A program made the translations under genes and the position numbers. Below, in pieces: positions 1 to 24,732 of a stretch of DNA of 64,000 bases. How positions within the stretch are numbered: position 1 is the stretch's first letter; each line of letters opens with the position of its first letter. Where the stretch lies: positions 86,713,355 through 86,777,354 of the forward strand of contig NC_132878.1 of assembly GCF_030463535.1 (NCBI RefSeq), written 5' to 3'. A model generated the notes under the pieces. It made no database searches and was not told where the DNA came from. It saw only the letters and a program-made list of their open reading frames with translations. This DNA is from Salminus brasiliensis (taxonomy: Eukaryota; Chordata; Actinopteri; Characiformes; Bryconidae).

Positions 1-443
1 GGTACGAGAGGGTATAAGACAGCACAAGAGGGTATGAGAGGGTACAAGAGGGTATAAGAGAATATAAGAGGGTATGAGAGGGTTCAAGAGGGTATGAGAG
101 CGTATGAGAGGGTATAAGAAGGCACAAGTGGGTACGAGAGGGTATAAGACGCACAAGAGGGTATAAAAGGGTACAAGAGGGTATGAGAGGATATGAGGGG
201 GTACAAGCAGATATGAGAGGGTACGAGATGGTATAAGACGACACAAGAGGGTATGAGAAGGTACGAGAGGGTACGGGAGAGTATAAGATGGCACAAGAGG
301 TTATGAGAGGGTACAAGAGGGCATGAGATGGTACAAGAGGGGAAGAGGGGGTTTATGATGACACAAGAGGGTATGAGAGTGTATGAGATGGTATAAGAGG
401 GTAAACGAAGGTATGAGAGGGTATAAGAGGGTATTGGAGGGTA
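1..443 (+). repeat. AGAGGGTAYR minisatellite, block 1 (cut by window start)
   Basis: Degenerate tandem repeat with a 10-bp unit close to AGAGGGTAYR. It is strongly G/A-rich on the + strand and continues off the left edge. Runs of GGG recur every 10 bases with 7-base spacers, which fits the usual G-quadruplex pattern. The complementary strand has no stop-forming triplets, so all its frames stay open and give spurious Ser/Tyr/Pro/Leu-rich proteins. The block ends where the conserved 5' flank of the first tRNA gene begins. Confidence 0.9.
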
Positions 444-610
444 CATGCAGGTAGACAACAAATGTTGAATTCAAAAAGCTGAAGATTCAGCAGCATCAGT
501 GTTTGACATCACTTAAATTAGCCTACCTACCGAATGTCTAGGTGTGGCACCATTCAGGTGACAGATGTCAACTCTTTATAAGGACACCTGGCCAAGCAGC
601 TTTCATGCAG
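444..610 (+). promoter_or_regulatory. Conserved 5' flank of the tRNA-Thr units, with TATA-like element
   Basis: About 165 bp between minisatellite and tRNA gene, kept almost unchanged in front of all ten copies. It contains a TTTATAA element about 36 to 30 bases upstream of the mature tRNA end and a short palindrome GCTGAA-GA-TTCAGC near its start. TATA-like elements upstream of tRNA genes are known to help TFIIIB placement in some eukaryotes. A role here is inferred from position and conservation only, since tandem amplification alone also preserves sequence. Confidence 0.45.
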
Positions 611-683
611 GGCTCCATAGCTCAGTGGTTAGAGCACTGGTCTTGTAAACCAGGGGTCGCGAGTTCAATTCTCGCTGGGGCCT
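611..683 (+). tRNA. tRNA-Thr (TGT), array copy 1
   Basis: Full 73-nt cloverleaf. The acceptor stem GGCTCCA pairs with TGGGGCC followed by discriminator T. The anticodon stem CTGGT/ACCAG encloses loop CTTGTAA, giving anticodon TGT, which reads ACA and other threonine codons by wobble. The T arm is GCGAG/CTCGC with loop TTCAATT. The A box TAGCTCAGTGG and B box GTTCAATTC match the pol III consensus. There is no intron, and CCA is not encoded, as expected in eukaryotes. A TTTT terminator follows at 692-695. Confidence 0.95.
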
Positions 684-1258
684 TTCAGAACTTTTAAATG
701 TCCAGAAAAAAGATGACCAAGGACACCTGAAGCAGTGAAGGACAGAACTTCACCGTTCACAAATCCTTCTAAATACTGCATCCTGTGAAAAGAAGATTCC
801 AGTGAAATCAGGCTAGTCGTCAGTCTAAGGAATGAGTGGCGTTTCCTGACAGTGCTGTAATCTTCTGCTCTGTCTTGAAGGTCCACCCTAGTCTATAGTA
901 GGCATCACTATAGTCTATAGTTAGAGACTGTAGTTGATCTTTTGAGGCAAATCCTACAACCCTTCACCAAATGTACATTTTTCACAGAGTTATACAGAGC
1001 TCCACATTTTTGGCTGGCAGAAAACATTCAACCGAGCAGTGATACTGACATGAGTGAAAACCCCAGCAACACTAATGAAGGGCTTAATGGAGTCTAAATG
1101 CACTGGTCTTGGAAATGAGAGCGACTATGGCCTAAAGAGTTTGAGAGCACATGGATGCTGGATTAGTCCCCAGACGTTCTTAGCCCAAAACAGGGGCAAG
1201 CACTTCTGCTAGTAGTGTACGTTCTTGGTGCACGTCGTCCACTACCTTCACAACAGTC
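684..1258 (+). repeat. Tail segment of the tRNA-Thr unit (first copy)
   Basis: About 570 bp of non-coding sequence between the tRNA gene and the next minisatellite block, repeated after most other copies. It includes small internal repeats of the type CTATAGT and ends with a segment running into CAACAGTCCAAG, where the minisatellite restarts. Short open frames here are not conserved as proteins. In units 5 and 10 a deleted form of the tail is present. I recognise no gene in it. Confidence 0.8.
692..695 (+). terminator. Pol III TTTT terminator of tRNA copy 1
   Basis: Four T residues eight bases after the discriminator base, in the context AACTTTTAAA. The same site follows every copy except copy 8, where it reads TCTT. 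Confidence 0.6.
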
Positions 1259-1816
1259 CAAGAGGGTACAAGAGGATATAAGAGGGTACGAGGGGGTTTA
1301 AGAGGTTACGAGGGGGTATGAGGGGGTTTAAGAGGGTATCAGAAGGTATTAGAGGGTACGAGGGGGTACGAGAGGGTATAAGACAGCACAAGAGGGTATG
1401 AGAGGGTACAAGAGGGTATAAGAGAATATAAGAGGGTATGAGAGGGTTCAAGAGGGTATGAGAGCGTATGAGAGGGTATAAGAAGGCACAAGTGGGTACG
1501 AGAGGGTATAAGACGCACAAGAGGGTATAAAAGGGTACAAGAGGGTATGAGTGGATATGAGGGGGTATAAGCAGGTATGAGAGGGTACGAGATGGTATAA
1601 GACGACACAAGAGGGTATGAGAAGGTACGAGAGGGTACGGGAGAGTATAAGATGGCACAAGAGGTTATGAGAGGGTACGAGAGGGCATGAGATGGTACAA
1701 GAGGGGAAGAGGGGGTTTATGATGACACAAGAGGGTATGAGAGTGCATGAGATGGTATAAGAGGGTAAACGAAGGTATGAGAGGGTATAAGAGGGTATTG
1801 GAGGGTACATGCAGGT
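1259..1816 (+). repeat. AGAGGGTAYR minisatellite, block 2
   Basis: About 55 imperfect 10-bp units between tRNA copies 1 and 2. The order of variant units, including the AGACGCACAAG and GATGACACAAG types, is nearly the same as in blocks 1, 3b and 4. Whole units were therefore copied together rather than the repeat expanding unit by unit. Confidence 0.9.
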
Positions 1817-1974
1817 AGACAACAAATGTTGAATTCAAAAAGCTGAAGATTCAGCAGCATCAGTGTTTGACATCACTTAAATTAGCCTACCTACCGAATG
1901 TCTAGGTGTGGCACCATTCAGGTGACAGATGTCAACTCTTTATAATGACACCTGGCCAAGCAGCTTTCAGGCAG

Positions 1975-2047
1975 GGCTCCATAGCTCAGTGGTTAGAGCA
2001 CTGGTCTTGTAAACCAGGGGTCGCGAGTTCAATTCTCGCTGGGGCCT
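1975..2047 (+). tRNA. tRNA-Thr (TGT), array copy 2
   Basis: Identical to copy 1 over all 73 nt: anticodon TGT, intact A box and B box, TTTT terminator shortly downstream. It lies 1,364 bp after copy 1, one full repeat unit. Confidence 0.95.
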
Positions 2048-2621
2048 TTCAGAACTTTTAAATGTCCAGAAAAAAAGATGACCAAGGACACCTGAAGCAG
2101 TGAAGGACAGAACTTCACCGTTCACAAATCCTTCTAAATACTGCATCCTGTGAAGAAGATTCCAGTGAAATCAGGCTCGTCGTCAGTCTAAGGAATGAGT
2201 GGCATTTCCTGACAGTGCTGTAATCTTCTGTTCTGTCTTGAAGGTCCACCCTAGTCTATAGTAGGCATCACTATAGTCTATAGTTAGAGACTGTAGTTGA
2301 TCTTTTGAGGCAAATCCTACAACCCTTCACCAAATGTACATTTTTCACAGAGTTATACAGAGCTCCACATTTTTGGCTGGCAGAAAACATTCAACCGAGC
2401 AGTGATACTGACATGAGTGAAAACCCCAGCAACACTAATGAAGGGCTTAATGGAGTCTAAATGCACTGGTCTTGGAAATGAGAGCGACTATGGCCTAAAG
2501 AGTTTGAGAGCACATGGATGCTGGATTAGTCCCCAGACGTTCTTAGCCCAAAACAGGGGCAAGCACTTCTGCTAGTAGTGTACGTTCTTGGTGCACGTCG
2601 TCCACTACCTTTACAACAGTC

Positions 2622-3069
2622 CAAGAGGGTACAAGAGGATATAAGAGGGTACGAGGGGGTTTAAGAGGTCACGAGGGGGTATGAGGGGGTTTAAATGGGT
2701 ATCAGAGGGTATTAGAGGGTACGAGGGGGTACGAGAGGGTATAAGACAGCACAAGAGGGTATGAGAGGGTACAAGAGGGTATAAGAGAATATAAGAGGGT
2801 ATGAGAGGGTTCAAGAGGGTATGAGAGTGTATGAGAGGGTATAAGAAGGCACAAATGGGTACGAGAGGGTATAAGATGCACAAGAGGGTATAAAAGGGTA
2901 CGACAGGGAATGAGAGAGTATAAGACGGCACAAGAGGGTTTAAAACGGTAAAAGAGGGTATGAGAGGATATGAGGGGGTATAAGCAGGTGTGAGAGGGTA
3001 CGAGATGGTATAAGACGACACAAGAGGGTATGAGAAGGTACGAGAGGGTACGGGAGAGTATAAGATGGC
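2622..3069 (+). repeat. AGAGGGTAYR minisatellite, block 3a
   Basis: Minisatellite block that ends abruptly at about 3069, where a 127-bp piece of the unit tail is joined to it. The join looks like an unequal exchange inside the array. Confidence 0.9.
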
Positions 3070-3196
3070 AAAAAAGTTTGAGAGCACATGGATGCTGGAT
3101 TAGTCCCCAGACGTTCTTAGCCCAAAACAGGGGCAAGCACTTCTGCTAGTAGTGTACGTTCTTGGTGCACGTCGTCCACTACCTTCACAACAGTCC
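3070..3196 (+). repeat. Duplicated unit-tail fragment inside the minisatellite
   Basis: Repeats the last ~127 bp of the unit tail (compare 2500-2625, offset about 574 bp), with no tRNA gene attached. It is followed by a second minisatellite block. This makes the spacing between tRNA copies 2 and 3 (1,865 bp) longer than the usual 1,364 bp. Confidence 0.85.
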
Positions 3197-3683
3197 AAGA
3201 GGGTACAAGAGGATATAAGAGGGTACGAGCGGGTTTAAGAGGTTACGAGGGGGTATGATGGGGTTTAAGAGGGTATCAGAGGGTATAAGAGGGTACGAGG
3301 GGGTACGAGAGGGTTCAAGAGGGTATGAGAGCGTATGAGAGGGTATAAGAAGGCACAAGTGGGTACGAGAGGGTATAAGACGCACAAGAGGGTATAAAAG
3401 GGTACAAGAGGGTATGAGAGGATATGAGGGGGTACAAGCAGATATGAGAGGGTACGAGATGGTATAAGACGACACAAGAGGGTATGAGAAGGTACGAGAG
3501 GGTACGGGAGAGTATAAGATGGCACAAGAGGTTATGAGAGGGTACAAGAGGGCATGAGATGGTACAAGAGGGGAAAAGGGGGTTTAAGATGACACAAGAG
3601 GGTATGAGTGTATGAGATGGTATAAGAGGGTAAACGAAGGTATGAGAGGTTATAAGAGGGTATGGGAGGGTACATGCAGGTAG
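3197..3683 (+). repeat. AGAGGGTAYR minisatellite, block 3b
   Basis: Continuation of the 10-bp minisatellite after the duplicated tail fragment, leading into the 5' flank of tRNA copy 3. Confidence 0.9.
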
Positions 3684-3839
3684 ACAACAAATGTTGAATT
3701 CAAAAAGCTGAAGATTCAGCAGCATCAGTGTTTGACATCACTTAAATTAGCCTACCTACCGAATGTCTAGGTGTGGCACCATTCAGGTGACAGATGTCAA
3801 CTCTTTATAAGGACACCTGGCCAAGCAGCTTTAATGCAG

Positions 3840-3912
3840 GGCTCCATAGCTCAGTGGTTAGAGCACTGGTCTTGTAAACCAGGGGTCGCGAGTTCAATTC
3901 TTGCTGGGGCCT
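3840..3912 (+). tRNA. tRNA-Thr (TGT), array copy 3
   Basis: Same 73-nt gene with anticodon TGT and intact A and B boxes. One change in the 3' half of the T stem (CTCGC to CTTGC) turns a G-C pair into a G-T wobble, which should be tolerated. A TTTT terminator follows. Confidence 0.93.
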
Positions 3913-4485
3913 TTCAGAACTTTTAAATGTCCAGAAAAAAAGATGACCAAGGACACCTGAAGCAGTGAAGGACAGAACTTCACCATTCACAAATCCTTCT
4001 AAATACTGCATCCTGTGAAGAAGATTCCAGTGAAATCAGGCTAGTCGTCAGTCTAAGGAATGAGTGGCATTACCTGACAGTGCTGTAATCTTCTGTTCTG
4101 TCTTGAAGGTCCACCCTAGTCTATAGTAGGCATCACAATAGTCTATAGTTAGAGACTGTAGTTGATCTTTTGAGGCTAATCCTACAACCCTTCACCAAAT
4201 GTACATTTTTCACAGAGTTATACAGAGCTCCACATTTTTGGCTGGCAGAAAACATTCAACCGAGCAGTGATACTGACATGAGTGAAAACCCCAGCAACAC
4301 TAATGAAGGGCTTAATGGAGTCTAAATGCACTGGTCTTGGAAATGAGAGCGACTATGGCCTAAAGAGTTTGAGAGCACATGGATGCTGGATTAGTCCCCA
4401 GACGTTCTTAGCCCAAAACAGGGGCAAGCACTTCTGCTAGTAGTGTACGTTCTTGGTGCACGTCGTCCACTACCTTCACAACAGT

Positions 4486-5045
4486 CCAAGAGGGTACAAG
4501 AGGATATAAGAGGGTACGAGGGGGTTTAAGAGGTTACGAGGGGGTATGAGGGGGTTTAAGAGGGTATCAGAGGGTATAAGAGGGTACGAGGGGGTACGAG
4601 AGGGTATAAGACAGCACAAGAGGGTATGAGAGGGTACAAGAGGGTATAAGAGAATATAAGAGGGTACGAGAGGGTTCAAGAGGGTATGAGAGCGTATGAG
4701 AGGGTATAAGAAGGCACAAGTGGGTACGAGAGGGTATAAGACGCACAAGAGGGTATAAAAGGGTACAAGAGGGTATGAGAGGATATGAGGGGGTATAAGC
4801 AGGTATGAGAGGGTACGAGATGGTATAAGACGACACAAGAGGGTATGAGAAGGTATGAGAGGGTACGGGAGAGTATAAGATGGCACAAGAGGTTATGAGA
4901 GGGTACGAGAGGGCATGAGATGGTACAAGAGGGGAAGAGGGGGTTTATGATGACACAAGAGGGTATGAGAGTGTATGAGATGGTATAAGAGGGTAAACGA
5001 AGGTATGAGAGGTTATAAGAGGGTATGGGAGGGTACATGCAGGTA
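4486..5045 (+). repeat. AGAGGGTAYR minisatellite, block 4
   Basis: Minisatellite between tRNA copies 3 and 4, with a variant-unit order matching block 2. Confidence 0.9.
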
Positions 5046-5202
5046 GAAGACAAATGTTGAATTCAAAAAGCTGAAGATTCAGCAGCATCAGTGTTTGACA
5101 TCACTTAAATTAGCCTACCTACCGAATGTCTAGGTGTGGCACCATTCAGGTGACAGATCTCAACTCTTTATAATGACACCTGGTGAATCAGCTTTAATTC
5201 AG

Positions 5203-5275
5203 GGCTCCATAGCTCAGTGGTTAGAGCACTGGTCTTGTAAACCAGGGGTCGCGAGTTCAATTCTCGCTGGGGCCT
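5203..5275 (+). tRNA. tRNA-Thr (TGT), array copy 4
   Basis: Identical to copy 1: anticodon TGT, intact promoter boxes and terminator. Just upstream the flank differs slightly (CTGGTGAATCAGC instead of CTGGCCAAGCAGC). Confidence 0.95.
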
Positions 5276-5727
5276 TTCAGAACTTTTAAATGTCCAGAAA
5301 AAAAGATGACCAAGGACACCTGAAGCAGTGAAAGACAGAACTTCACCATTCACAAATCCTTCTAAATACTGCATCCTGTGAAGAAGATTCCAGTGAAATC
5401 AGGCTCGTCGTCAGTCCAAGGAATGAGTGGCATTTCCTGATAGTGCTGTCATCTTCTGCTCTCCTCTGCTGGCATTTCCACTTATTTCCACAACATTCAA
5501 CTGAGCAGAAATACTGACATGAGTGAAAACCCCAGCACCACTAATGAAGGGGTTAAAGGAGTCTAAATGCACTGGTCTTGGAAATGAGGGCGACTGTGGC
5601 CTAAAGAGTTTGAGAGCACATGGATGCTGGCTTGGTCCCCAGACATCCTTGGCCCAAAAAAGGGCCACGCACTCCTGCTAGTAGTGTACGTTCTTGGTGC
5701 ACGTCATCCACTGCCTGCACAACAGTC

Positions 5728-5876
5728 CAAGAGGGTATGAGAGGGTACAAGGGGGTATAAGAGTATACAAGAGGGTATAAGAGGGCACGAGAGCGTACGA
5801 AAGGGTATAAGACAACACAAGAGGGTATGAGAGGGCATAAAAAGGTACGAGAGAGTATAAGAGGCACAGGCAGGTA
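5728..5876 (+). repeat. Short AGAGGGTAYR minisatellite, block 5
   Basis: Only about 15 units, in a unit whose tail is also shortened. The spacing from copy 4 to copy 5 is only 831 bp. Block 10 has the same short architecture. Confidence 0.88.
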
Positions 5877-6033
5877 GAAGACAAATGATGAATTCAAAAA
5901 GCTGAAGATTCAGTAGCATCAGTGTTTGACATCACTTAAATTAGCCTACCTACCGAATGTCTAGGTGTGGCACCATTCCGGTGACAGATCTCAACTCTTT
6001 ATAATGACACCTGGCCAAGCAGCTTTCAGGCAG

Positions 6034-6106
6034 GGCTCCATAGCTCAGTGGTTAGAGCACTGGTCTTGTAAACCAGGGGTAGCGAGTCCAATTCTCGCTG
6101 GGGCCT
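6034..6106 (+). tRNA. tRNA-Thr (TGT), array copy 5, T loop altered
   Basis: Anticodon TGT and an intact A box, but the T loop reads TCCAATT instead of TTCAATT, so the near-invariant U55 of TTC is lost, and base 48 is A instead of C. The change also falls inside the B box (GTCCAATTC). TFIIIC binding and tertiary folding are probably weakened, so this copy is likely a poor or dead gene. This is inferred from the sequence alone. Confidence 0.85.
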
Positions 6107-6391
6107 TCCAGAACTTTTAAATGTCCAGAAAAAAGATGACCAAGGACACCTGAAGCAGTGAAGGACAGAACTTCACCGTTCACAAATCCTTCTAAATACT
6201 GCATCCTGTGAAAAGAAGATTCCAGTGAAATCAGGCTAGTCGTCAGTCTAAGGAATGAGTGGCATTTCCTGACAGTGCTGTAATCTTCTGGTCTGTCTTG
6301 AAGGTCCACTCTGCCACAATAGTCTATAGTTAGAGACTGTAGTTGATCTTTTGAGGCTAATCCTACAACCCTTCACCAAAAGTACATTTTC

Positions 6392-7010
6392 CGAGAGGGT
6401 AGAATGAGAGGGTAGAAGACGGCACACAAGGGTATGAGAGGGTACAAGAGGGTATAAGAGGATATAAGATGCTATGAGGGGGTTTTAGAGGGTAAGAGGG
6501 GGTTTAACAGGGTACGAGAGGGTATAAGAGGAAAAGAGGGGGTTTAAGAGGGTACAAGTGGTAGAAGAGGGTACGAGTGGGACAAGATGTATGAGAGGGA
6601 ATGAGAGGGTATGGGAGGATATAAGAGGGAACAAGAAGGTATGAGATGGTATGAGAGGTTATAACAGGGTATAAGAGGGCACAATAGGGTATCAGCGGGA
6701 ATAACATGGCACAAGAGAGTATGAGAGGGTATGCGAGGAAATAAGAGGGTACGAGAGGGCAGGAGAAGGGTATGAGAGGGTATTAGAGGGTATAAGAGGG
6801 AACAAAAGGGTATGAGAGCACACGAGAAGGGATGAGAGGGTATAAGAAGGTACGAGAGGGTATGAGAGGGTATAAGCAGGTACGAGAGGGTATGAGAGAG
6901 TATAATATGGCCCAAGAGGTTATGAGAGGGTATGAGAGTGCATGAGATGGTATAAGAGGGTAAACGAAGGTATGAGAGGGTATAAGAGGGTATTGGAGGG
7001 TACATGCAGG
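6392..7010 (+). repeat. AGAGGGTAYR minisatellite, block 6 (divergent type)
   Basis: More degenerate minisatellite, starting inside the unit tail right after AGTACATTTTCC and carrying extra variants (AGAAGG, ATAACAGG). Block 8 is an almost exact copy 2,550 bp downstream. Confidence 0.9.
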
Positions 7011-7169
7011 TAGACAACAAATGTTGAATTCAAAAAGCTGAAGATTCAGCAGCATCAGTGTTTGACATCACTTAAATTAGCCTACCTACCGAATGTCTAG
7101 GTGTGGCACCATTCAGGTGACAGATGTCAACTCTTTATAAGGACACCTGGCCAAGCAGCTTTCATGCAG

Positions 7170-7242
7170 GGCTCCATAGCTCAGTGGTTAGAGCACTGGT
7201 CTTGTAAACCAGGGGTCGCGAGTTAAATTCTCGCTGGGGCCT
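7170..7242 (+). tRNA. tRNA-Thr (TGT), array copy 6, B-box mutant
   Basis: Anticodon TGT, but the T loop is TTAAATT, replacing the invariant C56 with A. This breaks the G19-C56 tertiary pair and the most important base of the B box (GTTAAATTC). Copy 8 shares the change, so it predates the 2.55-kb duplication. Probably a tRNA pseudogene. Confidence 0.85.
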
Positions 7243-7816
7243 TTCAGAACTTTTAAATGTCCAGAAAAAAAGATGACCAAGGACACCTGAAGCAGTGAAG
7301 GACAGAACTTCACCGTTCACAAATCCTTCTAAATACTGCATCCTGTGAAGAAGATTCCAGTGAAATCAGGCTAGTTGTCAGTCTAAGGAATGAGTGGCAT
7401 TACCTGACAGTGCTGTAATCTTCTGTTCTGTCTTGAAGGTCCACCCTAGTCTATAGTAGGCATCACAATAGTCTATAGTTAGAGACTGTAGTTGATCTTT
7501 TGAGGCTAATCCTACAACCCTTCACCAAATGTACATTTTTCACAGAGTTATACAGAGCTCCACATTTTTGGCTGGCAGAAAACATTCAACCGAGCAGTGA
7601 TACTGACATGAGTGAAAACCCCAGCAACACTAATGAAGGGCTTAATGGAGTCTAAATGCACTGGTCTTGGAAATGAGAGCGACTATGGCCTAAAGAGTTT
7701 GAGAGCACATGGATGCTGGATTAGTCCCCAGACGTTCTTAGCCCAAAACAGGGGCAAGCACTTCTGCTAGTAGTGTACGTTCTTGTTGCACGTCGTCCAC
7801 TACCTTCACAACAGTC

Positions 7817-8426
7817 CAAGAGGGTACAAGAGGATATAAGAGGGTGCAAGGGGGTTTAAGAGGTTACGAGGGGGTATGAGGGGGTTTAAGAGGGTATCAG
7901 AGGGTATAAGAGGGTACGAGGGGGTACGAGAGGGTATAAGACAGCACAAGAGGGTATGAGAGGGTACAAGAGGGTATAAGAGAATATAAGAGGGTATGAG
8001 AGGGTTCAAGAGGGTATGAGAGCGTATGAGAGGGTATAAGAAGGCACAAGTGGGTACGAGAGGGTATAAGACGCACAAGAGGGTATAAAAGGGTACGACA
8101 GGGTATGAGAGAGTATAAGATGGCACAAGAGGGTATAAAAGGGTACAAGAGGGTATGAGAGGATATAAGGGGGGTATAAGCAGGTATGAGAGGGTACGAG
8201 ATGGTATAAGACAACACAAGAGGGTATGAGAAGGTACGAGAGGGTATGGGAGAGTATAAGATGGCCCAAGAGGTTATGAGAGGGTACGAGAGGGCATGAG
8301 ATGGTATAAGAGGGGAAGAGGGGGTTTATGATGACACAAGAGGGTATGAGAGTGCATGAGATGGTATAAGAGGGTAAACAAAGGTATGAGAGGGTATAAG
8401 AGGGTATGGGAGGGTACATGCAGGTA
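7817..8426 (+). repeat. AGAGGGTAYR minisatellite, block 7
   Basis: Standard-type minisatellite preceding the first CGT tRNA gene. Duplicated as block 9. Confidence 0.9.
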
Positions 8427-8583
8427 GACAACAAATGTTGAATTCAAAAAGCTGAAGATTCAGCAGCATCAGTGTTTGACATCACTTAAATTAGCCTACC
8501 TACCGAATGTCTAGGTGTGGCACCATTCAGGTGACAGATCTCAACTCTTTATAATGACACCTGGCCATGCAGCTTTCATGCAG

Positions 8584-8656
8584 GGCTCCATAGCTCAGTG
8601 GTTAGAGCACTGGTCTCGTAAACCAGGGGTCGCGAGTTCAATTCTCGCTGGGGCCT
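8584..8656 (+). tRNA. tRNA-Thr (CGT), array copy 7, anticodon-shifted
   Basis: Same 73-nt body as copy 1, but the anticodon loop reads CTCGTAA, so the anticodon is CGT and the tRNA would read ACG only. G35 and U36, the main threonyl-tRNA synthetase anticodon determinants, are kept, so threonine charging is expected. The A box, B box and TTTT terminator are intact. The homologous position 2,550 bp upstream (copy 5) has TGT, so the shift arose within the array. Confidence 0.93.
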
Positions 8657-8941
8657 TTCAGAACTTTTAAAAGTCCAGAAAAAAGATGACCAAGGACACC
8701 TGAAGCAGTGAAGGACAGAACTTCACCGTTCACAAATCCTTCTAAATACTGCATCCTGTGAAAAGAAGATTCCAGTGAAATCAGGCTAGTCGTCAGTCTA
8801 AGGAATGAGTGGCATTTCCTGACAGTGCTGTAATCTTCTGCTCTGTCTTGAAGGTCCACTCTGCCACAATAGTCTATAGTTAGAGACTGTAGTTGATCTT
8901 TTGAGGCTAATCCTACAACCCTTCACCAAAAGTACATTTTC

Positions 8942-9560
8942 CGAGAGGGTAGAATGAGAGGGTAGAAGACGGCACACAAGGGTATGAGAGGGTACAAGAG
9001 GGTATAAGAGGATATAAGATGCTATGAGGGGGTTTTAGAGGGTAAGAGGGGGTTTAACAGGGTACGAGAGGGTATAAGAGGAAAAGAGGGGGTTTAAGAG
9101 GGTACAAGTGGTAGAAGAGGGTACGAGTGGGACAAGATGTATGAGAGGGAATGAGAGGGTATGGGAGGATATAAGAGGGAACAAGAAGGTATGAGATGGT
9201 ATGAGAGGTTATAACAGGGTATAAGAGGGCACAATAGGGTATCAGCGGGAATAACATGGCACAAGAGAGTATGAGAGGGTATGCGAGGAAATAAGAGGGT
9301 ACGAGAGGGAAGGAGAAGGGTATGAGAGGGTATTAGAGGGTATAAGAGGGAACAAAAGGGTATGAGAGCACACGAGAAGGGATGAGAGGGTATAAGAAGG
9401 TACGAGAGGGTATGAGAGGGTATAAGCAGGTACGAGAGGGTATGAGAGAGTATAAGATGGCCCAAGAGGTTATGAGAGGGTATGAGAGTGCATGAGATGG
9501 TATAAGAGGGTAAACGAAGGTATGAGAGGGTATAAGAGGGTATTGGAGGGTACATGCAGG
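8942..9560 (+). repeat. AGAGGGTAYR minisatellite, block 8
   Basis: Near-identical copy of block 6 at +2,550 bp. Confidence 0.9.
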
Positions 9561-9719
9561 TAGACAACAAATGTTGAATTCAAAAAGCTGAAGATTCAGC
9601 AGCATCAGTGTTTGACATCACTTAAATTAGCCTACCTACCGAATGTCTAGGTGTGGCACCATTCAGGTGACAGATGTCAACTCTTTATAATGACACCTGG
9701 CCAAGCAGCTTTCATGCAG

Positions 9720-9792
9720 GGCTCCATAGCTCAGTGGTTAGAGCACTGGTCTTGTAAACCAGGGGTCGCGAGTTAAATTCTCGCTGGGGCCT
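9720..9792 (+). tRNA. tRNA-Thr (TGT), array copy 8, B-box mutant without TTTT
   Basis: Same C56-to-A T-loop change as copy 6. The downstream terminator has also mutated from TTTT to TCTT (around 9801-9804), so transcripts, if any, would read through. Most likely a tRNA pseudogene. Confidence 0.85.
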
Positions 9793-10366
9793 TTCAGAAC
9801 TCTTAAATGTCCAGAAAAAAAGATGACCAAGGACACCTGAAGCAGTGAAGGACAGAACTTCACCGTTCACAAATCCTTCTAAATACTGCATCCTGTGAAG
9901 AAGATTCCAGTGAAATCAGGCTAGTTGTCAGTCTAAGGAATGAGTGGCATTACCTGACAGTGCTGTAATCTTCTGTTCTGTCTTGAAGGTCCACCCTAGT
10001 CTATAGTAGGCATCACAATAGTCTATAGTTAGAGACTGTAGTTGATCTTTTGAGGCTAATCCTACAACCCTTCACCAAATGTACATTTTTCACAGAGTTA
10101 TACAGAGCTCCACATTTTTGGCTGGCAGAAAACATTCAACCGAGCAGTGATACTGACATGAGTGAAAACCCCAGCAACACTAATGAAGGGCTTAATGGAG
10201 TCTAAATGCACTGGTCTTGGAAATGAGAGCGACTATGGCCTAAAGAGTTTGAGAGCACATGGATGCTGGATTAGTCCCCAGACGTTCTTAGCCCAAAACA
10301 GGGGCAAGCACTTCTGCTAGTAGTGTACGTTCTTGTTGCACGTCGTCCACTACCTTCACAACAGTC

Positions 10367-10976
10367 CAAGAGGGTACAAGAGGATATAAGAGGGTGCGAG
10401 GGGGTTTAAGAGGTTACGAGGGGGTATGAGGGGGTTTAAGAGGGTATCAGAGGGTATAAGAGGGTACGAGGGGGTACGAGAGGGTATAAGACAGCACAAG
10501 AGGGTATGAGAGGGTACAAGAGGGTATAAGAGAATATAAGAGGGTATGAGAGGGTTCAAGAGGGTATGAGAGCGTATGAGAGGGTATAAGAAGGCACAAG
10601 TGGGTACGAGAGGGTATAAGACGCACAAGAGGGTATAAAAGGGTACGACAGGGTATGAGAGAGTATAAGATGGCACAAGAGGGTATAAAAGGGTACAAGA
10701 GGGTATGAGAGGATATAAGGGGGGTATAAGCAGGTATGAGAGGGTACGAGATGGTATAAGACAACACAAGAGGGTATGAGAAGGTACGAGAGGGTATGGG
10801 AGAGTATAAGATGGCCCAAGAGGTTATGAGAGGGTACGAGAGGGCATGAGATGGTATAAGAGGGGAAGAGGGGGTTTATGATGACACAAGAGGGTATGAG
10901 AGTGCATGAGATGGTATAAGAGGGTAAACAAAGGTATGAGAGGGTATAAGAGGGTATGGGAGGGTACATGCAGGTA
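10367..10976 (+). repeat. AGAGGGTAYR minisatellite, block 9
   Basis: Near-identical copy of block 7 at +2,550 bp. Confidence 0.9.
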
Positions 10977-11133
10977 GACAACAAATGTTGAATTCAAAAA
11001 GCTGAAGATTCAGCAGCATCAGTGTTTGACATCACTTAAATTAGCCTACCTACCGAATGTCTAGGTGTGACACCATTCAGGTGACAGATCTCAACTCTTT
11101 ATAATGACACCTGGCCATGCAGCTTTCATGCAG

Positions 11134-11206
11134 GGCTCCATAGCTCAGTGGTTAGAGCACTGGTCTCGTAAACCAGGGGTCGCGAGTTCAATTCTCGCTG
11201 GGGCCT
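11134..11206 (+). tRNA. tRNA-Thr (CGT), array copy 9, anticodon-shifted
   Basis: Same sequence as copy 7, with anticodon CGT, intact pol III boxes and TTTT terminator. It reached two copies through the 2.55-kb duplication. Confidence 0.93.
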
Positions 11207-11661
11207 TTCAGAACTTTTAAAAGTCCAGAAAAAAGATGACCAAGGACACCTGAAGCAGTGAAGGACAGAACTTCACCGTTCACAAATCCTTCTAAATACT
11301 GCATCCTGTGAAAAGAAGATTCCAGTGAAATCAGGCTAGTCGTCAGTCTAAGGAATGAGTGGCATTTCCTGACAGTGCTGTAATCTTCTGCTCTCCTCTG
11401 CTGGCATTTCCACTTATTTCCACAACATTCAACCGAGCAGTGATACTGACATGAGTGAAAACCCCAGCAACACAGTAATGAAGGGGTTATAGGAGTCTAA
11501 ATGCACTGGCCTTGGAAATGAGGGTGACTGTGGCCTAAAGAGTTTCAGAGCACATGGATGCTGGCTTGGTCCCCAGACATCCTTGGCCCAAAAAAGGGCC
11601 ATGCACTCCTGCTAGTAGTGTACGTTCTTGGTGCACGTCATCCACTGCCTGCACAACAGTC

Positions 11662-11830
11662 CAAGAGGGTATGAGAGGGTATAGGAGGGTACGAGGGGAG
11701 ACGAGATGGTATGAGGGGATACAAGAGGGTATAAGAGGACATGAGAGCGTACGAAAGGGTATAAGACAACACAAGAGGGTATGAGAGGGAATACAAAGGT
11801 ACGAGAGAGTATAAGAGGCACAGGCAGGTA
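11662..11830 (+). repeat. Short AGAGGGTAYR minisatellite, block 10
   Basis: About 17 units. Same shortened-unit architecture as block 5, preceding the last tRNA copy. Confidence 0.88.
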
Positions 11831-11987
11831 GAAGACAAATGATGAATTCAAAAGGCTGAAGATTCAGCAGCATCAGTGTTTGACATCACTTAAATTAGCC
11901 TACCTACCGAATGTCTAGGTGTGGCACCATTCAGGTGACCGATCTCAACTCTTTATAATGACACCTGGCCAAGCAGCGTTCAGGCAG

Positions 11988-12060
11988 GGCTCCATAGCTC
12001 AGTGGTTAGAGCACTGGTCTTGTAAACCAGGGGTCGCGAGTTCAATTCTCGCTGGGGCCT
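11988..12060 (+). tRNA. tRNA-Thr (TGT), array copy 10
   Basis: Identical to copy 1 with TGT anticodon, intact boxes and terminator. It is the last tRNA gene of the array. Its unit tail is interrupted by the LINE at 12336. Confidence 0.95.
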
Positions 12061-13033
12061 TTCAGAACTTTTAAATGTCCAGAAAAAAAGATGACCAAGG
12101 ACACCTGGAGCAGTGAAGGACAGAACTTCACCATTCACAAATCCTTCTAAATACTGCATCCTGTGAAGAAGATTCCAGTGAAATCAGGCGAGTCGTCAGT
12201 CTAAGGAATGAGTGGCTTTTCCTGACAGTGCTGTAATCTTTTGCTCTGTCTTGAAGGTCCACTCTGCCACAATAGTCTATAGTTAGAGACTGTAGTTTAC
12301 CTTTTGAGTCTAATCCTACAATACTTCACCAAATATACCAAAAGTCTGCACCAAAAAACAGAGCAGGGAACACTCTGGACCTGATCTTCAGCAGACCTGT
12401 CCCTGCTCTAGATGTGGCTGTGACTCCTTTGGACTTCTCTGATCACCACTTTCTCTCCTTCTGACTCCCCCTCTCCGCTCTTTCAACCACTGCTTCTGCA
12501 AGTTCTTCCACTCTTCACCGCAATTTTCGCTCTGTCTCCCCCTCAGCTCTTCCTCATCTTGAATCCTTCTCCTCTCTCCCACTAGAAACTGCTACAGACA
12601 CTCTTCTTTCATTTATCTCCACCTCTGTCGACCTTCTCTGCCCTTTCTCACCTAGGTCAGCAAATTCTTTTTCACCTTCCCCGTGGCTGTCAGATGTTCT
12701 CTGCAACAACCGTAGAGAGCTGAAAGGAAGTGGCGGAAGTCACAACACGACTCCGACCTCCACTCCTATCAGTCTCTTCTCTCCAGGTTCAGAACGGAAG
12801 TTGCGGCTGCTAAAGCATCTCACTACAGGGGAAAACTGGAAGCATCTGCATCTGACCCACGCAAACTCTTCACCATCTTCTCCTCTCTCCTCAACCCTTC
12901 AACTCCCCCACCACCCACTACCCTGTCTGCACAAGATTTTGTCTCCTTCTTTGAAGAAAAGGTTGACAAGATCCGTTGATCTTTCCCCCCTGCCTCTACC
13001 CCGCTCTCTACACTTGGCCCTCCTCCTCCCTCT

Positions 13034-13214
13034 CAAGGATTCAAGGATTCAAGGAGACTTTATTGTCATTCGCATCACATGTGGTACATGGGGTGGAACG
13101 AAATTGTGGTACCCAAGGACCCAGTTTTACCCAGACAGCAGTACTTAAATAAATAAAATATACATAAATATATAAAAATATATGTAAAAATGAAAATGTA
13201 AAAATGAAAAATCC
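13034..13214 (-). mobile_element. Retroelement 3' tail inserted in the LINE
   Basis: Reverse-strand insert ending in repeated TTCAAGGA units next to an AATAAAG-like tail, typical of fish LINE 3' ends. It is flanked by the pyrimidine direct repeat CCTCCCTCT at 13025-13033 and 13215-13223, a likely 9-bp target-site duplication. It interrupts the host LINE frame. Confidence 0.7.
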
Positions 13215-14655
13215 CTCCCTCTGTCCTGCTTCTCTCTCTTTCCACAGATGACCTCCTACATCTTCTCACCTCTAATAATCCTACCACCTGTCCGCTAGAC
13301 CCTGTTACATCCCCTCTGTTCCAAACAATTGCTCCAAACCTCCTTCCTTTCATCTCCTTCATCATAAAAAGCTCTTTGTTGTCAGGTCAGGTACCATCCG
13401 CCTTCAAGTCTGCCAGAGTTGTGCCTATCCTAAAGAAGCCTACTCTGGACAGCTTGGACATCAGCAACTACAGACCCATTTCTCTTCTTTCCTTCCTCTC
13501 AAAGATTCTCGAACGCTCTGTATACAACCAACTGTCTCTCTTTCTCACCCTGAACAATGTACAGGACCCTAACCAGTCTGGCTTCAAAGCTGCACACTCT
13601 ACTGAAACTGCTCTCATTGCAGTTACAGAGAAGCTCCATGCAGCTAAAGCTGCCAAACTGTCATCGGTTCTGATCCTTCTTGACCTCTCTGCAGCTTTTA
13701 ACACAGTGGACCACAAGGTCCTCCTGTCTATCCTTGCCGGCCTTGGAATTACCGGCTCTGCATGGCGATGGTTTGCATCGTACCTGCAGGGATGCTCATA
13801 CCAGGTCACGTGGCAGGGGGACACGTCCGCTCCTTGTAGTCTCTCCACTGGTGTTCCACAAGGCTCGATTCTTGGTCCTCTTCTTTTCTCACTCTACACT
13901 CACTCTCTTGGTAAAGTGATATGCTCTCATGGATTCTCTTACCACTGTTACGCCGACAACACTCAACTCATGCTTTCTTTCCCACCGTCTGACACACAGG
14001 TTTCTGCCCGCATCACAGCATGCCTCGCTGATGTCTCTTCTTGGATGGCGGCTCACCACCTCAAACTCAACCCCAGCAAGACGGAGCTGCTGTACATCCC
14101 GGGAACTGCTGGACCAAAAAACGATCTTGCCATCTCCTTTGAGAACTCACTGATTACTCCTTCTACAGAAGCTTGAAGCCTTGGTGTAGTCATGGGTGAT
14201 CAGTTATCGTTTTCAAGTCATGTTGCAAATGTAACTCGGTCCTGCAGATTTCTCCTGTACAACATCCGGAGAATTCGACCCTTCCTCTCTAGAGAGGTCG
14301 CCCAGGTGCTCGTTCAGTCTCTCGTCACTTCCAGACTTGACTACTGCAACTCTCTTCCGGCTGGTCTCCCTCTGCGCACCATCAGGCCCCTGCAACTCAT
14401 CCAGAATGCAGTGGCACGGGTCGTCTTCAACGTCCCTAAATTCAGCCATGTCACTCCACTGCTGCGTTCTCTTCACTGGCTTCCTGTAGCTGCTTCCCGC
14501 ATCAGATTCAAAACCCTGACGCTGGCCTACAAAGCCAAGAACGGACCAGCCCCTCCGTACTTGATGGCAATGGTCAAAAGCCGATCCGCACCTAGAGCCC
14601 TTAGAGCTTCAAGTACGGCTCTGCTCGATCCGCCATCCCTCAAAATCCGTGGAAG

Positions 14656-14872
14656 TGGTTGGTATGGCGCAACAGATAATACCACTACCTGCTAGTGAGC
14701 TACCTCACCACGTAGGAGACTGGGGTTCGATTCCCAGTCTGGGTGACTATGCTGCGCTACACCAATAAGAGTCCTTTGGCAAGACTCCTAACACTATATT
14801 GGCCCACCGCTGTAATACAAGTAACCTTGTAAGTCGCTCTGGATAAGAGCGTCAGCTAAATGCCATAAATGT
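14656..14872 (+). mobile_element. tRNA-derived SINE nested in the LINE
   Basis: The head resembles a tRNA with B box GGGGTTCGATTCC. The tail (GTAAGTCGCTCTGGATAAGA and onward) matches the 3' end of the surrounding LINE, so the SINE presumably uses that LINE's machinery. The LINE sequence GGAAG|ACAAG is split by the insert. A second copy lies at 28142-28388. Confidence 0.85.
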
Positions 14873-15140
14873 AAGACAAGTGTCCTGGCACCAAAGTGGT
14901 GGAACGAGCTTCCCTTGGGTGTCAGAACAGCCGAGTTGCTCGCTGTCTTCAAATGCAGACTGAAGACCCACCTCTTCAGAGAATACAAATGGTTATTGAC
15001 TTGTGTTTAGTAATGTCTAAAGCTTAAAGGTATCTTTGAACTATTAGTGTATTCTAACTAGCTATGGTTTTTCTTGGATAAATGGTAAAGCACTTTTGTA
15101 AGTCGCTCTGGATAAGAGCGTCTGCTAAATGCCGTAAATG

Positions 15141-15392
15141 TACATTTTCCACAGAGTTACCGAACCCCACAGTTTCTCCCCTTGCCCTGAGGTGACTGCC
15201 CACCACCCCAGTTGTGTGCCCTCATGGCCATAATCAGTAGCGTGTGTTCGCTGCCACAGATGGGTTAAATGTGGAGGTTGTGGAAGTGATTAATCTTACT
15301 CTCAAAACAGGGCCACACTCTTCTGCTAGTAGTGCACGTTCTTGGTGCACATCGGCCACTGCCTGCACAACAGTCCAAGAGGGTACAAGCAG
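15141..15392 (+). repeat. Right-hand remnant of the last tRNA-Thr unit
   Basis: Sequence beyond the LINE resumes the unit tail (TACATTTTCCACAGAG). It is then interrupted by a decayed SINE piece (about 15171-15295, GCCACAGATGGGTTAAATG). It ends with the tail terminus CTGCTAGTAGTGCACGTTC through CAACAGTCCAAGAGGGTACA. It contains no tRNA gene and just one minisatellite unit, marking the original right border of the array. Confidence 0.8.
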
Positions 15393-15423
15393 CTTCTGCA
15401 GCACCATTGCTTGACAGATAACA

Positions 15424-15774
15424 ATAAAGTATTGGGACATCCGCTAATTTAAAGTTTCTGCCTAAATCAAGGGGACTTAAGATTTTATTCTGCTTTTGTT
15501 GGAGTAACTGTCTACATGCTCCAGGGAAGATGTTCTACTAAAATGTGGAGCACTGCTGTAAAAACCTGTTTGCATTAGTTAGTGAGGTCAGGATGTAGAA
15601 TGACCAACACCCCCACCTCATCCCTAAGCCCTATACTATTGGCAGCACTTCTCTACAGGGACTAGACAAGCAGTGCATGTGCATTTGCTTATCTGTGTCA
15701 GCAATGGGTGCAACTTGAAGTAGCTGAAGACATTAATTAGAAGTGGTGTCCACAAACATTTGGACATACAGCGT
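15424..15774. mobile_element. Mariner-like MITE, shortened copy
   Basis: Begins with the terminus AGTATTGGGACAT and ends with GGTGTCCACAAACATTTGGA, the two ends of a ~490-bp non-autonomous family found about ten times in the window. It encodes no transposase. It lies between the tRNA array and the 3' end of ino80c. Confidence 0.75.
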
Positions 15775-16325: not shown

Positions 16326-16457
16326 TCAGGGGACGATGCAGGTGGCCTTTCGAAGAGCCAGGTAACCCGTCACTACATCTGTGGGGAGCAGGCGGATGTA
16401 GGAGAACTCCTCAGATGAGGTAAAGCGTAATTTAGTCTGAGGGTCTGTGTAATTTGC
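16326..16457 (-). CDS. ino80c: ino80c terminal coding exon 5
   Basis: 43 codons and TGA. Acceptor TTCCAG. Encodes the second half of the YL1 C-terminal domain and the conserved GYLALRKAT end. Confidence 0.93.
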   Translation of the reverse strand, partial: ANYTDPQTKLRFTSSEEFSYIRLLPTDVVTGYLALRKATCIVP

Positions 16458-19400
16458 CTGGAAAACAAAGTGCAGAAAAGGAAGTTACAGCAAAGAATGA
16501 AACATACACCAAGCCCGACCTGCTTACAAAAACACAGCTAAATGAGCCTTCTATTCAAATGGGTTCAGAAGGCCCTCTCTAGCATCACCAGCTTTAGTTT
16601 TGGCTAAAGACTTCTTTTTGTAAATGCTTTTCTATGGCTGACTTACCATCACCTCTGCATTTGACTGTTAAAAATGGCTTTCAAATCTTGCTTCTTTCCA
16701 TACTGTGCTAATATACAACTGACTCTTTTACTATTCTATCTTAGAGACATTTACATTTACTGCTTTAGCTAACACTCTTATCCAGAGCGGCCTGCATTTG
16801 AATCATGTTACACAAGTAAGAGAACGTAAAGTTATGGGTCTTGCCCAAGGACAATGTCGGTATAGTGGTGGGGCTGGGCTGGCCCACCATGCTATACCAA
16901 CCACATTCAACCAACTACTAACATACATAGACCAAACTGTTGGTACCTTTTTAAGGGGTTAAATTGTCAAGACAATTTTATTAAATTCAATTGGACTTTG
17001 AGTTTAATAAAATTGGAAAAAAAAAAACAACAACAATGTTACTGTTAGTTACTTAATGTTAGTCAATTAATGCAAAAATTTACAAATATGTGCAAATGTA
17101 TGACTGAAGCCTGGGTGATTATACTAATAGTAAAACATAATAAATATGTAGAGCAGTGATGTGTTGTGTGCTTAAATGAACAGTAAAACAGAAAGTCCAG
17201 GAGTGTATGCTGAGGTAGACCAGTCTGGTATTGTAGTATCACATATGTAAATGAGGTGTACAGTGCAGTGTTGAGTATAGCAGCTAGTGTTCAGGTAGAG
17301 AGAACAGAACACAGCTTATGTATAGAGTTCCAGTTAAAGTGCACAGTGCATACAGTTCCTGAGGCAGTGGAGCTCAGTGTGGGTATGATGAGTGAACTCA
17401 CCGGTAATCCTGAGATATCAGAGTACTTTTTAGGAGGCTTCATTGAAGGAGGAGAATCTATATTATAATCTATAAGAAGCAGAAGCAGAAGACATGTCTA
17501 TTGAAACGATTCAAAAACCATGCAAATCATAATCGACTAATATAAAACATAAACTAGTTTAAATCCGAGCTGAGGAGTTCTGACTCATACTTACAGTTGG
17601 GATCACTGATTTTCCAGGGTAGTGCTCTCTCGGCTGCCAGAATCTGCTTCAGATTCTTCCATGTCCGATTCTTCTTCCCTGCTGCCGCACCTCCAATACC
17701 TGAATGCTACAGAGAACGGAGTGGAGTGAAAACAAGGAAATTACGCATTTGGAGATAAGTAGTCACTGCCAGCATGTGGAAATTAGACACCTCTTATATG
17801 CGTCATGTCACAAAACACATGCAGAGCCAAGATTCAAGGACTGTGTGTGTATCTATTAGATTTTTCTTTGGCAAACCACTCTTGTTGCATGTTATGTGTT
17901 GTTGATCTTCTGCCTTTCTTTAAATACAGGCATGCAAACTATATTTACAGTAACGGTTTGCCATCGAATAATCTAATTTACACAGTTTTCATCCATTTAC
18001 CCTAAAGGAACATCTCAGTCAAGTTATATTTGGGGCTTGAATAAATTTGAATGTCCAACTCAGCTAAGTGTCCTGTTACATCTGCTCCAATGCAACTGGT
18101 GGTTTAGCAGCACAAGCTGGGATCTCATCTAAAGTCCTACCACAAAGTTGGGGTCTTTAAAAGGCAGAGGCTTGGTGGCAGGCTCAACAGGCTGCGCACA
18201 GGCATCTGCTGTAGCAACCGGCTTCCCATCTGCTGAATCAACGATCACAATCTGAAAACACACAAGCAAAGCCAAAAACAATTACCACAGCACACACAAG
18301 CTAATATCCTATGCGTCTGTCAGTGAGACTGCCTAGCCAAGTAAAGTCTGCTCAGTTAGATGCTGAACACCCCCCTTAAAATAGACTGGCTCTGTTGCAA
18401 AGCAGTCACCTAAATGTTTAGTTAAAAGGGAAGGAGATAGTCAGCACTGCTGCTAACCCGTTCATGACTGGTGATGCTACTAACAACAGCCAAGCCAACA
18501 AGAATTAAATAATTTTAATAACTACATCACTAACTTTAATGGCATTTGGCTGATGTTCTTATCCAGAAGAACACACATTTGAATCACGTTACACAGGTAG
18601 GTGAACGTAGAAGTTTTGCCCAACAACTTTTAATGTAGCATGGGGAGGTTGTTTAGAAAGCAAGGCTTAATCTTCCACAATTCAAACAATGCACTGACAT
18701 TTAAAAGATGTCATACAGTGCATTTCCTCAGTATTTTAAAGTGTTCTGAGATGTCTACGTAGATAGAAGACAAGCTGTGCTGCAGTGTTATGGATTGGTT
18801 GACCGGGCCTGATAATACAGAGGAAGATCAGCCAGGAAAGAGCTGCAATAGTCAAGCCTCAGAACCTAATAAGAGAAGAAGAGCTGAACCAGGTGCGTTC
18901 GAGCAAACTGGACACAAGCGGTAAAGCCCTGTCCTTTTCAACTTCAGCCCCAGTGCATTTTCTTGGTATTTCGTTCCTGCACAGGTTGCCAACCCTATTT
19001 CTGGATCTTGGACTTGGATCTCCCGGTCCTACACATTTTAGTGTTTCACATGTTACCAACACAGTTAACTAATTCAACTAGAGTTGGGAATCTTTGTGTT
19101 GCAGACGTTTTTAACTCTGCACATGTAGGTATTCAGGTTTCAGGTATTCTCTGATATTATTTCACCATATAGGCTTTTATGGATATTTATGAGTGTTAAT
19201 AAATGAGTACGTGTTTATGTATGAATATTCATTTATATAGTTACACACAGACTTCCCATCGCCATGGTCCTACAACTTAAACCCTTCGATCACAACATCC
19301 CAATCACTGTGGACGCCTGGGTTTCCCCAGTGCCCTCGTTTTTGGAAAGCCATATGGTCACTGTAATCCATACTTTGGTTTCAGAGGTTTCAGAGGATTT

Positions 19401-24404: not shown

Positions 24405-24552
24405 GGGACGGAATATGTTGGGGCTGAATTCCCAGTCTATGAATATGCTGTGCTACACCACTAAGAGTCCTTGGGCACGTCTCCTAACACCTTTGCAATA
24501 TAAGTAACTTTTCTCTGGATAAGAGTGTCAGCTAAATGCAGTAAATGCAAAC
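24405..24552 (+). mobile_element. Degenerate tRNA-derived SINE
   Basis: Diverged 3' part of the family at 14656 and 28142: CCCAGTCTATGAATATGCTG, GCTACACCACTAAGAGTCC and the tail CTCTGGATAAGAGTGTCAGC. The tRNA-like head is lost. Confidence 0.65.
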
Positions 24553-24732
24553 AGTGTCCTAGAAACAGTGACATTGCCACATCAGGTTTTAGTCTTGCCT
24601 TTTCTTGGTGTCACAAAATGGTGCTTCAACATACTGTGCTTAAGTGTGTTTTAGCTGTCAAACTTACTTCTAGAGGAATTTGACCCCCTGCTGGGCTGGC
24701 ATGCTTACATGTGAATTGTAAAGTAACTGCAG

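Follow-up and report, generated by a model that had tools for sequence, protein, structure and literature searches.

A tandem array of tRNA-Thr genes with a decamer minisatellite spacer in Salminus brasiliensis, and exchange between its units

When tandemly repeated tRNA genes are separated by a short G-rich repeat, is the repeat the cause of their amplification or a passenger in it? The question is raised by a stretch of 64,000 nucleotides from the fish Salminus brasiliensis (RefSeq assembly GCF_030463535.1, contig NC_132878.1, positions 86,713,355 to 86,777,354 of the forward strand; referred to below as the window), in which tRNA-Thr genes alternate with blocks of the degenerate decamer AGAGGGTAYR. 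An earlier note on this DNA had proposed that the decamer repeat forms G-quadruplexes, stalls replication forks, promotes unequal exchange and in this way drives tRNA gene copy number. Our analysis leads us to regard as probable another history, namely birth-and-death of the tRNA genes by exchange of whole units, with the minisatellite as a faster-evolving passenger. As to cause or passenger, the evidence leans toward the latter, although not conclusively.

tRNA-Thr units and the exchanges between them

ARAGORN, used with the bacterial setting, called 10 tRNA-Thr genes within positions 1 to 12300 (spanning 611 to 12060), all on the + strand, and every call was backed by Rfam model RF00005 with scores of 67 to 73.7 bits (gathering score, 29). 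Each of the ten genes gives the complete, high-scoring match to the tRNA model that is seen for functional nuclear tRNA genes. The genes are of the same kind and orientation and are embedded in 5′ and 3′ flanks that are homologous between units (u1 to u10; Table 1), forming a tandem array as the earlier note had described. The set is less uniform than that description implied: all genes encode tRNA-Thr, but two have the anticodon CGT and three carry changes at core residues. Four genes (u1, u2, u4, and u10) are identical and canonical. Residues 48, 55, and 56 are intact in seven of the ten genes and altered in u5, u6, and u8. Residues 55 and 56 are near-universal T-loop positions that hold the contact with the D loop and lie within the B box, and residue 48 pairs with residue 15. 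Because the changes hit these core residues, u5, u6, and u8 are probably decayed genes. The sequence CTTTATAA, located 37 bases upstream of the tRNA in all ten units (e.g., 1938..1945, + strand), is a putative TATA-like promoter element. The sequence AGAACTTTTAAA directly follows the gene in nine units, the exception being u8 (TCTT), and its T run could act as an RNA polymerase III (Pol III) terminator.

The clearest rearrangement is the recent duplication of a two-unit segment at a distance of 2550 bp. Just upstream of this segment, positions 5879 to 6122 differ from the sequence located 2550 bp downstream at 12 of 244 positions. Unit u7 tracks u9 through position 8844, with a single difference at 8520, and then tracks u5 from position 8845. 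Because of this switch, we place an exchange point, either a crossover or one boundary of a conversion tract, within 8672 to 8845; provided that u5 does not carry a private change at 6291, the interval narrows to 8841 to 8845. The exchange point is accordingly located 16 to 189 bp past tRNA u7, ahead of the start of the minisatellite at 8942. Both blocks carried along in the duplication have retained their lengths (615/615 and 604/604 bp), with 2 and 1 mismatches, and the differences between the copies amount to 3 in 1219 positions inside the blocks versus 4 in 1503 outside. The UGU-to-CGU switch is present in u7 and u9, the two copies linked by this duplication, and the pair is best read as an example of an isoacceptor switch spread through unit duplication. 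In most isoacceptor switches, 39 of 44 in one survey, the altered base is the first of the anticodon (PMC3923123), and the switch of u7 and u9 likewise affects that base.

Exchange was not limited to this event. The classes into which the units fall on their 5′ side differ from those on the 3′ side, so that units are mosaics. In the first 418 columns of the alignment of the minisatellite-free core, the four-gamete test found 24 incompatible pairs among the 105 pairs of 15 informative sites. These columns have therefore undergone at least three events of exchange or recurrent mutation; with recurrent mutation left out of account, no fewer than three exchanges took place. The duplication and the mosaic units establish exchange or homogenisation at the level of the unit, and are signs of the change in copy number by exchange between units that had been suggested earlier.

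The array is larger than the interval 1 to 12300 assigned to it previously. That interval does contain all ten genes, but the window begins inside block b1, so that the array runs past the left edge, and on the right a long interspersed nuclear element (LINE) interrupts the array, which continues as a relic to about 15.43 kb. The LINE is of the L2 type, as indicated by its reverse transcriptase (RVT_1, E 1.1e-33) and its UnaL2 element (RF00436, 69.1 bits). In the relic unit, ARAGORN found no tRNA gene. The 3′ flank pieces of the relic (up to 87 bp at 88.5 to 90.4% identity) reached a local score of 52, the highest score among 287 background windows being 37, and its 5′ flank had a score of 34, which was reached by none of 500 shuffles and none of 499 background windows. 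Since this outermost, diverged relic has almost no minisatellite, it suggests that the unit predates the expansion of the repeat.

Homologous units, a recent two-unit duplication, mosaic units, and a strongly diverged relic at the edge are the observed part of this history. The remainder of the proposed history would be as follows. Tandem amplification would have started from a nuclear tRNA-Thr(UGU) gene flanked by about 160 bp on the 5′ side and by as much as about 575 bp on the 3′ side, and units would have been duplicated, lost, and mixed via unequal crossing-over or gene conversion of whole units, leading to partial homogenisation. The minisatellite may have arisen from a short spacer seed as decamers were gained and lost in register, evolving somewhat faster than the flanks and otherwise carried along with the unit. 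Most gene copies would be transcribed by Pol III from their internal promoters, three would be decaying, and the tRNAs of the two CGU copies would continue to accept threonine and would decode ACG.

The decamer minisatellite as driver or passenger

The presence of an AGAGGGTAYR minisatellite between the genes was confirmed. It comprises 11 blocks, whose ends were set by the analyst, for a total of 5224 bp or 42% of positions 1 to 12300, and is found ahead of the first gene and in all nine gaps between neighboring genes; b3a and b3b are two separate blocks with 125 bp of flank between them. The window contains 24 exact copies of the 20-mer AGAGGGTAYRAGAGGGTAYR, a double decamer, all of them inside 1 to 12300, and 100 shuffles contained none. 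At a threshold of at least 7 matches out of 10, 492 decamers were recognised, of which 316 retain GGG and 166 are perfect. Blocks of 141 to 615 bp do not, on the other hand, amount to the kilobase-scale minisatellite previously announced. Among block pairs less than 5% diverged (22 of 55), internal gaps are of 70, 50, 10, 2, or 1 bp, or absent, and these sizes fit in-register decamer changes together with rare small insertions or deletions.

The predicted capacity of the repeat to form quadruplexes is limited. The earlier note had GGG recurring every 10 bases with spacers of exactly 7 bases, which holds for only 129 of the 324 GGG-GGG spacers, the others being of 17 bases (n = 78), of fewer than 7 bases (n = 46), or of another size (n = 71). 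The reported fit to the G3N1-7 consensus stands in part: 14 non-overlapping matches, covering 655 bp, are distributed among 8 of the 11 blocks, versus 4.75 for the shuffle means summed over blocks, but in no block does the count surpass the highest among the 200 shuffles of that block, and some of the blocks duplicate others, so that the excess is modest. Only 34 of the 302 four-tract windows have all loops of at most 7 bases, and none has all loops of at most 4 bases, i.e., the short loops of the CEB1/CEB25-type G-quadruplex minisatellites are not found; 32 of the 34 have three loops of 5 to 7 bases and 2 have a loop sum of at most 12. The match with the shortest loops is located at 8392-8414. 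In yeast, minisatellites were destabilised solely by short-loop, thermally stable quadruplexes, and sequences with several loops of more than 4 bases are named as false positives of the consensus (PMC5491262). Nor is GGG specially conserved within the decamer, with consensus retention of 0.781, 0.902, and 0.847 at the three G positions, versus 0.919, 0.934, 0.862, 0.825, and 0.923 at the other fixed positions. Folding with RNA parameters that allow quadruplexes, a rough proxy run on 4 of the 11 blocks (b2, b4, b6, and b10), afforded gains of 0.2, 0, 1.6, and 0 kcal/mol, respectively. Regular-expression counts may nonetheless understate the potential of the blocks, since the consensus misses many sites detected by G4-seq (PMC5491262). 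G4Hunter scores of at least 1.2 were obtained for 787 of 4960 block windows of 25 bases, versus 420 of 48376 elsewhere in the window, where either strand was counted, and, because of this enrichment, weak or local quadruplexes may form at some block sites. Altogether, a working G-quadruplex was rejected as a description of the repeat, the case for it being weak by regular expression, shuffles, loop lengths, G4Hunter, and per-position conservation.

What has to be weighed is how far these properties, and the location of the exchange, support a role of the repeat in changing gene number. A quadruplex-forming minisatellite that stalls forks and promotes unequal exchange would account for the G-rich strand bias along the array, for the excess of consensus matches and of high-scoring G4Hunter windows, for blocks that outpace the adjacent 3′ flanks in divergence, and for the junction at 3071, one side of which lies within a block. 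The same explanation has to contend with long loops, with GGG tracts retained no better than the rest of the decamer, with an exchange that is placed in the tRNA-proximal flank, and with copied blocks that kept their lengths; the minisatellite as a quadruplex driver is accordingly not supported, and we consider this explanation decidedly unlikely, although the minisatellite may have had a role in older exchanges. The position of the exchange, next to tRNA u7, would be expected if the tRNA genes themselves were the recombination-prone element, Pol III complexes acting as fork barriers and exchanges starting beside the genes. An analysis of Entamoeba refers to tRNA genes as recombination hot spots, probably through such barriers (PMC2652664). 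Only a single event has this location, however, and the long conserved homology present there could suffice to explain it, which leaves a tRNA-based hot spot unlikely here.

A structural role of the spacer can also be envisaged, since TA and GGG steps about half a helical turn apart could, with a period of 10 bp, phase nucleosomes and turn the block into a chromatin spacer or barrier between tRNA genes. Phase is indeed well kept, with 0 to 2 phase jumps in 9 of the 11 blocks despite mismatches to the consensus of 10 to 15% per block (two-fold ambiguity being allowed at two positions), and a boundary role has been proposed for a human tRNA variable-number tandem repeat (VNTR; PMC4041453). In-register duplication of the repeat also keeps phase, and blocks b6 and b8 each contain five jumps. 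The proposal also presupposes a link between such sequence and nucleosome affinity. Nucleosome phasing appears extremely improbable as the explanation of the array. Selective constraint on the 10-bp phase is not claimed either, jumps and mismatches being common to blocks by descent. In a more speculative scheme, the minisatellite would be retained for a function: as a 10-bp repeat that maintains its phase, it would set the distance between Pol III genes through chromatin phasing or fork control and keep the units recombinable, the array serving as a nursery of new isoacceptors. We consider this very improbable; if the nursery existed, the UGU-to-CGU switch, already amplified to two copies, would be a case of a new isoacceptor.

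Several observations weigh against exchange of whole units with a passive minisatellite. Divergence of the blocks exceeds that of the adjacent 3′ flanks in 9 of the 11 unit pairs compared (1.99% versus 0.95% overall, with ratios of 1.4 to 4.2), a comparison that used 11 of the 36 unit pairs and omitted the 25 whose blocks are at least 5% different. The minisatellite is therefore not a neutral-rate passenger. The two pairs with a flank more diverged than the block belong to the recent duplication, and a passenger evolving at the flank rate, as suggested by the 2550-bp duplication alone, is ruled out by the nine others. In our judgment, a roughly twofold-higher rate is ordinary for a minisatellite and can be explained without quadruplexes. 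At the 3071 junction, a block meets 3′ flank sequence at a short similarity, and b6 and b8 differ by 11.4 to 11.8%, with many gaps, from the long blocks b7 and b9, indicating that the minisatellite took part in other rearrangements. The position is well defined for a single exchange, and an identical pattern could result from gene conversion. Variable sites number 5 of 73 in the tRNA versus 18 of 160 and 15 of 185 in the flanks, leaving constraint on single copies unsupported. The few decamers of the relic could result from later contraction rather than represent the seed. Finally, the edge effect is clear for the relic only: u10 differs by 3 to 8% from other units, but divergence is also seen in two inner units, u4 (5 to 6% in the 5′ flank) and u9, both of which are as much as 8% away from other classes on the 3′ side. 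Birth-and-death by whole-unit exchange, with a minisatellite that evolves faster than its surroundings, remains in our opinion the probable account.

Feature coordinates and neighboring sequences

The features of the array are collected in Table 1.

Table 1. Features of the tRNA-Thr array and of its right-hand border
Feature	Position	Strand	Remarks
b1	1..445	+	Minisatellite block truncated by window edge; no G3N1-7 match
u1 tRNA-Thr(UGU)	611..683	+	Canonical
b2	1259..1811	+	No G3N1-7 match
u2 tRNA-Thr(UGU)	1975..2047	+	Same sequence as u1
b3a	2622..3070	+	Ends at junction into 3′ flank sequence
Partial 3′ flank	3071..3195	+	No tRNA gene; junction, located by eye, at the short similarity ATGGC, the putative basis of the joining
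b3b	3196..3676	+	Minisatellite block
u3 tRNA-Thr(UGU)	3840..3912	+	C63T, T-stem G-C to G-U; mild change
b4	4487..5041	+	Minisatellite block
u4 tRNA-Thr(UGU)	5203..5275	+	Same sequence as u1
b5	5728..5868	+	Short block; no G3N1-7 match
u5 tRNA-Thr(UGU)	6034..6106	+	C48A and T55C; probably damaged
Duplicated two-unit segment	6123..8844	+	7 mismatches among 2722 positions relative to the sequence located 2550 bp downstream
b6	6392..7006	+	615 bp
u6 tRNA-Thr(UGU)	7170..7242	+	C56A (T loop/B box); probably damaged
b7	7817..8420	+	604 bp
u7 tRNA-Thr(CGU)	8584..8656	+	T34C, anticodon UGU to CGU
b8	8942..9556	+	615 bp; copy of b6, 2 mismatches, ungapped
u8 tRNA-Thr(UGU)	9720..9792	+	C56A; probably decayed; downstream TTTT replaced by TCTT
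b9	10367..10970	+	604 bp; copy of b7, 1 mismatch, ungapped
u9 tRNA-Thr(CGU)	11134..11206	+	T34C, anticodon UGU to CGU
b10	11662..11823	+	Short block
u10 tRNA-Thr(UGU)	11988..12060	+	Same sequence as u1; final gene ahead of LINE
L2-type LINE	12339..15138	+	Located within the unit 10 3′ flank; has a reverse transcriptase and, at 15085-15138, a UnaL2 3′ element; approximate ends
Relic terminal unit	15137..15432	+	3′ flank pieces, ~1.5 decamers, start of 5′ flank

Within the 3′ part of the LINE, positions 14650 to 14870 (+) comprise a GGTTCGATTCC-like box and a UnaL2 element of their own (14816-14869). ARAGORN found no tRNA gene in that interval, which is probably a nested tRNA-derived short interspersed nuclear element with an L2 tail. 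A related stretch is present at 28388-28641 in the opposite orientation. Further LINE-like fragments were found at 24419-24560, 28165-28882, and 47775-48134, with UnaL2 elements at 28326-28379 and 48078-48130. Beyond the relic, positions 16329 to 16460 (−) match in frame the YL1_C domain (E 1.8e-07) and the C terminus of INO80 complex subunit C (E 1e-18; PDB chain 9gcg_I), and probably form the final exon of INO80C, whose 3′ end faces the array. The L2/UnaL2 elements and this exon would by themselves point to a vertebrate, probably a teleost. An 89-bp tandem repeat (61427-61701; 3.1 copies, 96% match) is located inside a TCTGTCTGTAGACC-type repeat region at approximately 61.3 to 62.2 kb.

Searches of two collections of non-vertebrate sequences, which are uninformative on related species, returned no stretch matching a 30-base pattern of the minisatellite in viral_contigs and one in genome_contigs; a 22-base pattern of the 5′ flank had no match in viral_contigs. 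The single match is a contig of a bacterial metagenome-assembled genome (61% G+C, no tRNA genes) that carries 3.6 copies of a 10-mer, and its 20 best matches to the window are all within that repeat. It was taken as a chance similarity rather than as a relative.

Comparison with known tRNA gene arrays

The array is a compact, readable record of the growth, decay, and anticodon change of a vertebrate tRNA family, in which one exchange point can be placed within at most 173 bases. Its unit had been thought unusual, but each of its elements is known. None of the matches listed from the open-licence literature, judged by title and start of abstract, dealt with tRNA arrays of vertebrates that have minisatellite spacers. 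An older tandem tRNA repeat is said to exist in Xenopus; no paper on it was found in that literature. Nor did any listed match from the same literature pair just one tRNA type with a long G-rich decamer spacer in a vertebrate.

Among animals, teleost genomes contain large clusters of tRNA genes, in which pairs are nearly all parallel in Danio, and the available portions of that report describe them as clusters and not as units with an embedded minisatellite (PMC2888827). Hydractinia has evenly spaced, similar tRNA genes with homologous spacers, as in Salminus, although a minisatellite spacer is not described in the accessible text; its authors consider such arrays unusual outside Entamoeba, with one mammalian example (PMC11067881). 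The human tRNA VNTR at 1q23.3, whose copy number differs among people and changes in families, also consists of vertebrate tandem tRNA-bearing units that contain simple tandem repeats, but these units are of 7.3 kb and include a CTCF site, four simple repeats, and five tRNA genes, which are of several types and occupy both strands (PMC4041453).

Also among the closest known systems is that of Entamoeba, where nearly every tRNA gene belongs to a tandem array with intergenic repeats, generally of 7 to 12 bp, inside the unit, and for which concerted evolution or unequal exchange has been proposed (PMC2652664). The Salminus array similarly consists of tRNA units that include a short tandem repeat, of 10 bp and in nine of nine gaps. 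Entamoeba differs in being a protist in which nearly all tRNA genes are arrayed, with units of up to five tRNA genes and A+T-rich spacers (PMC2652664), whereas the array of Salminus has one tRNA type, a G-rich decamer, and patchy homogenisation in a vertebrate. The parallel between units composed of tRNA and a short tandem repeat in such different organisms bears on whether arrays of this kind originate repeatedly and on whether the repeat in their spacers is a cause or a passenger.

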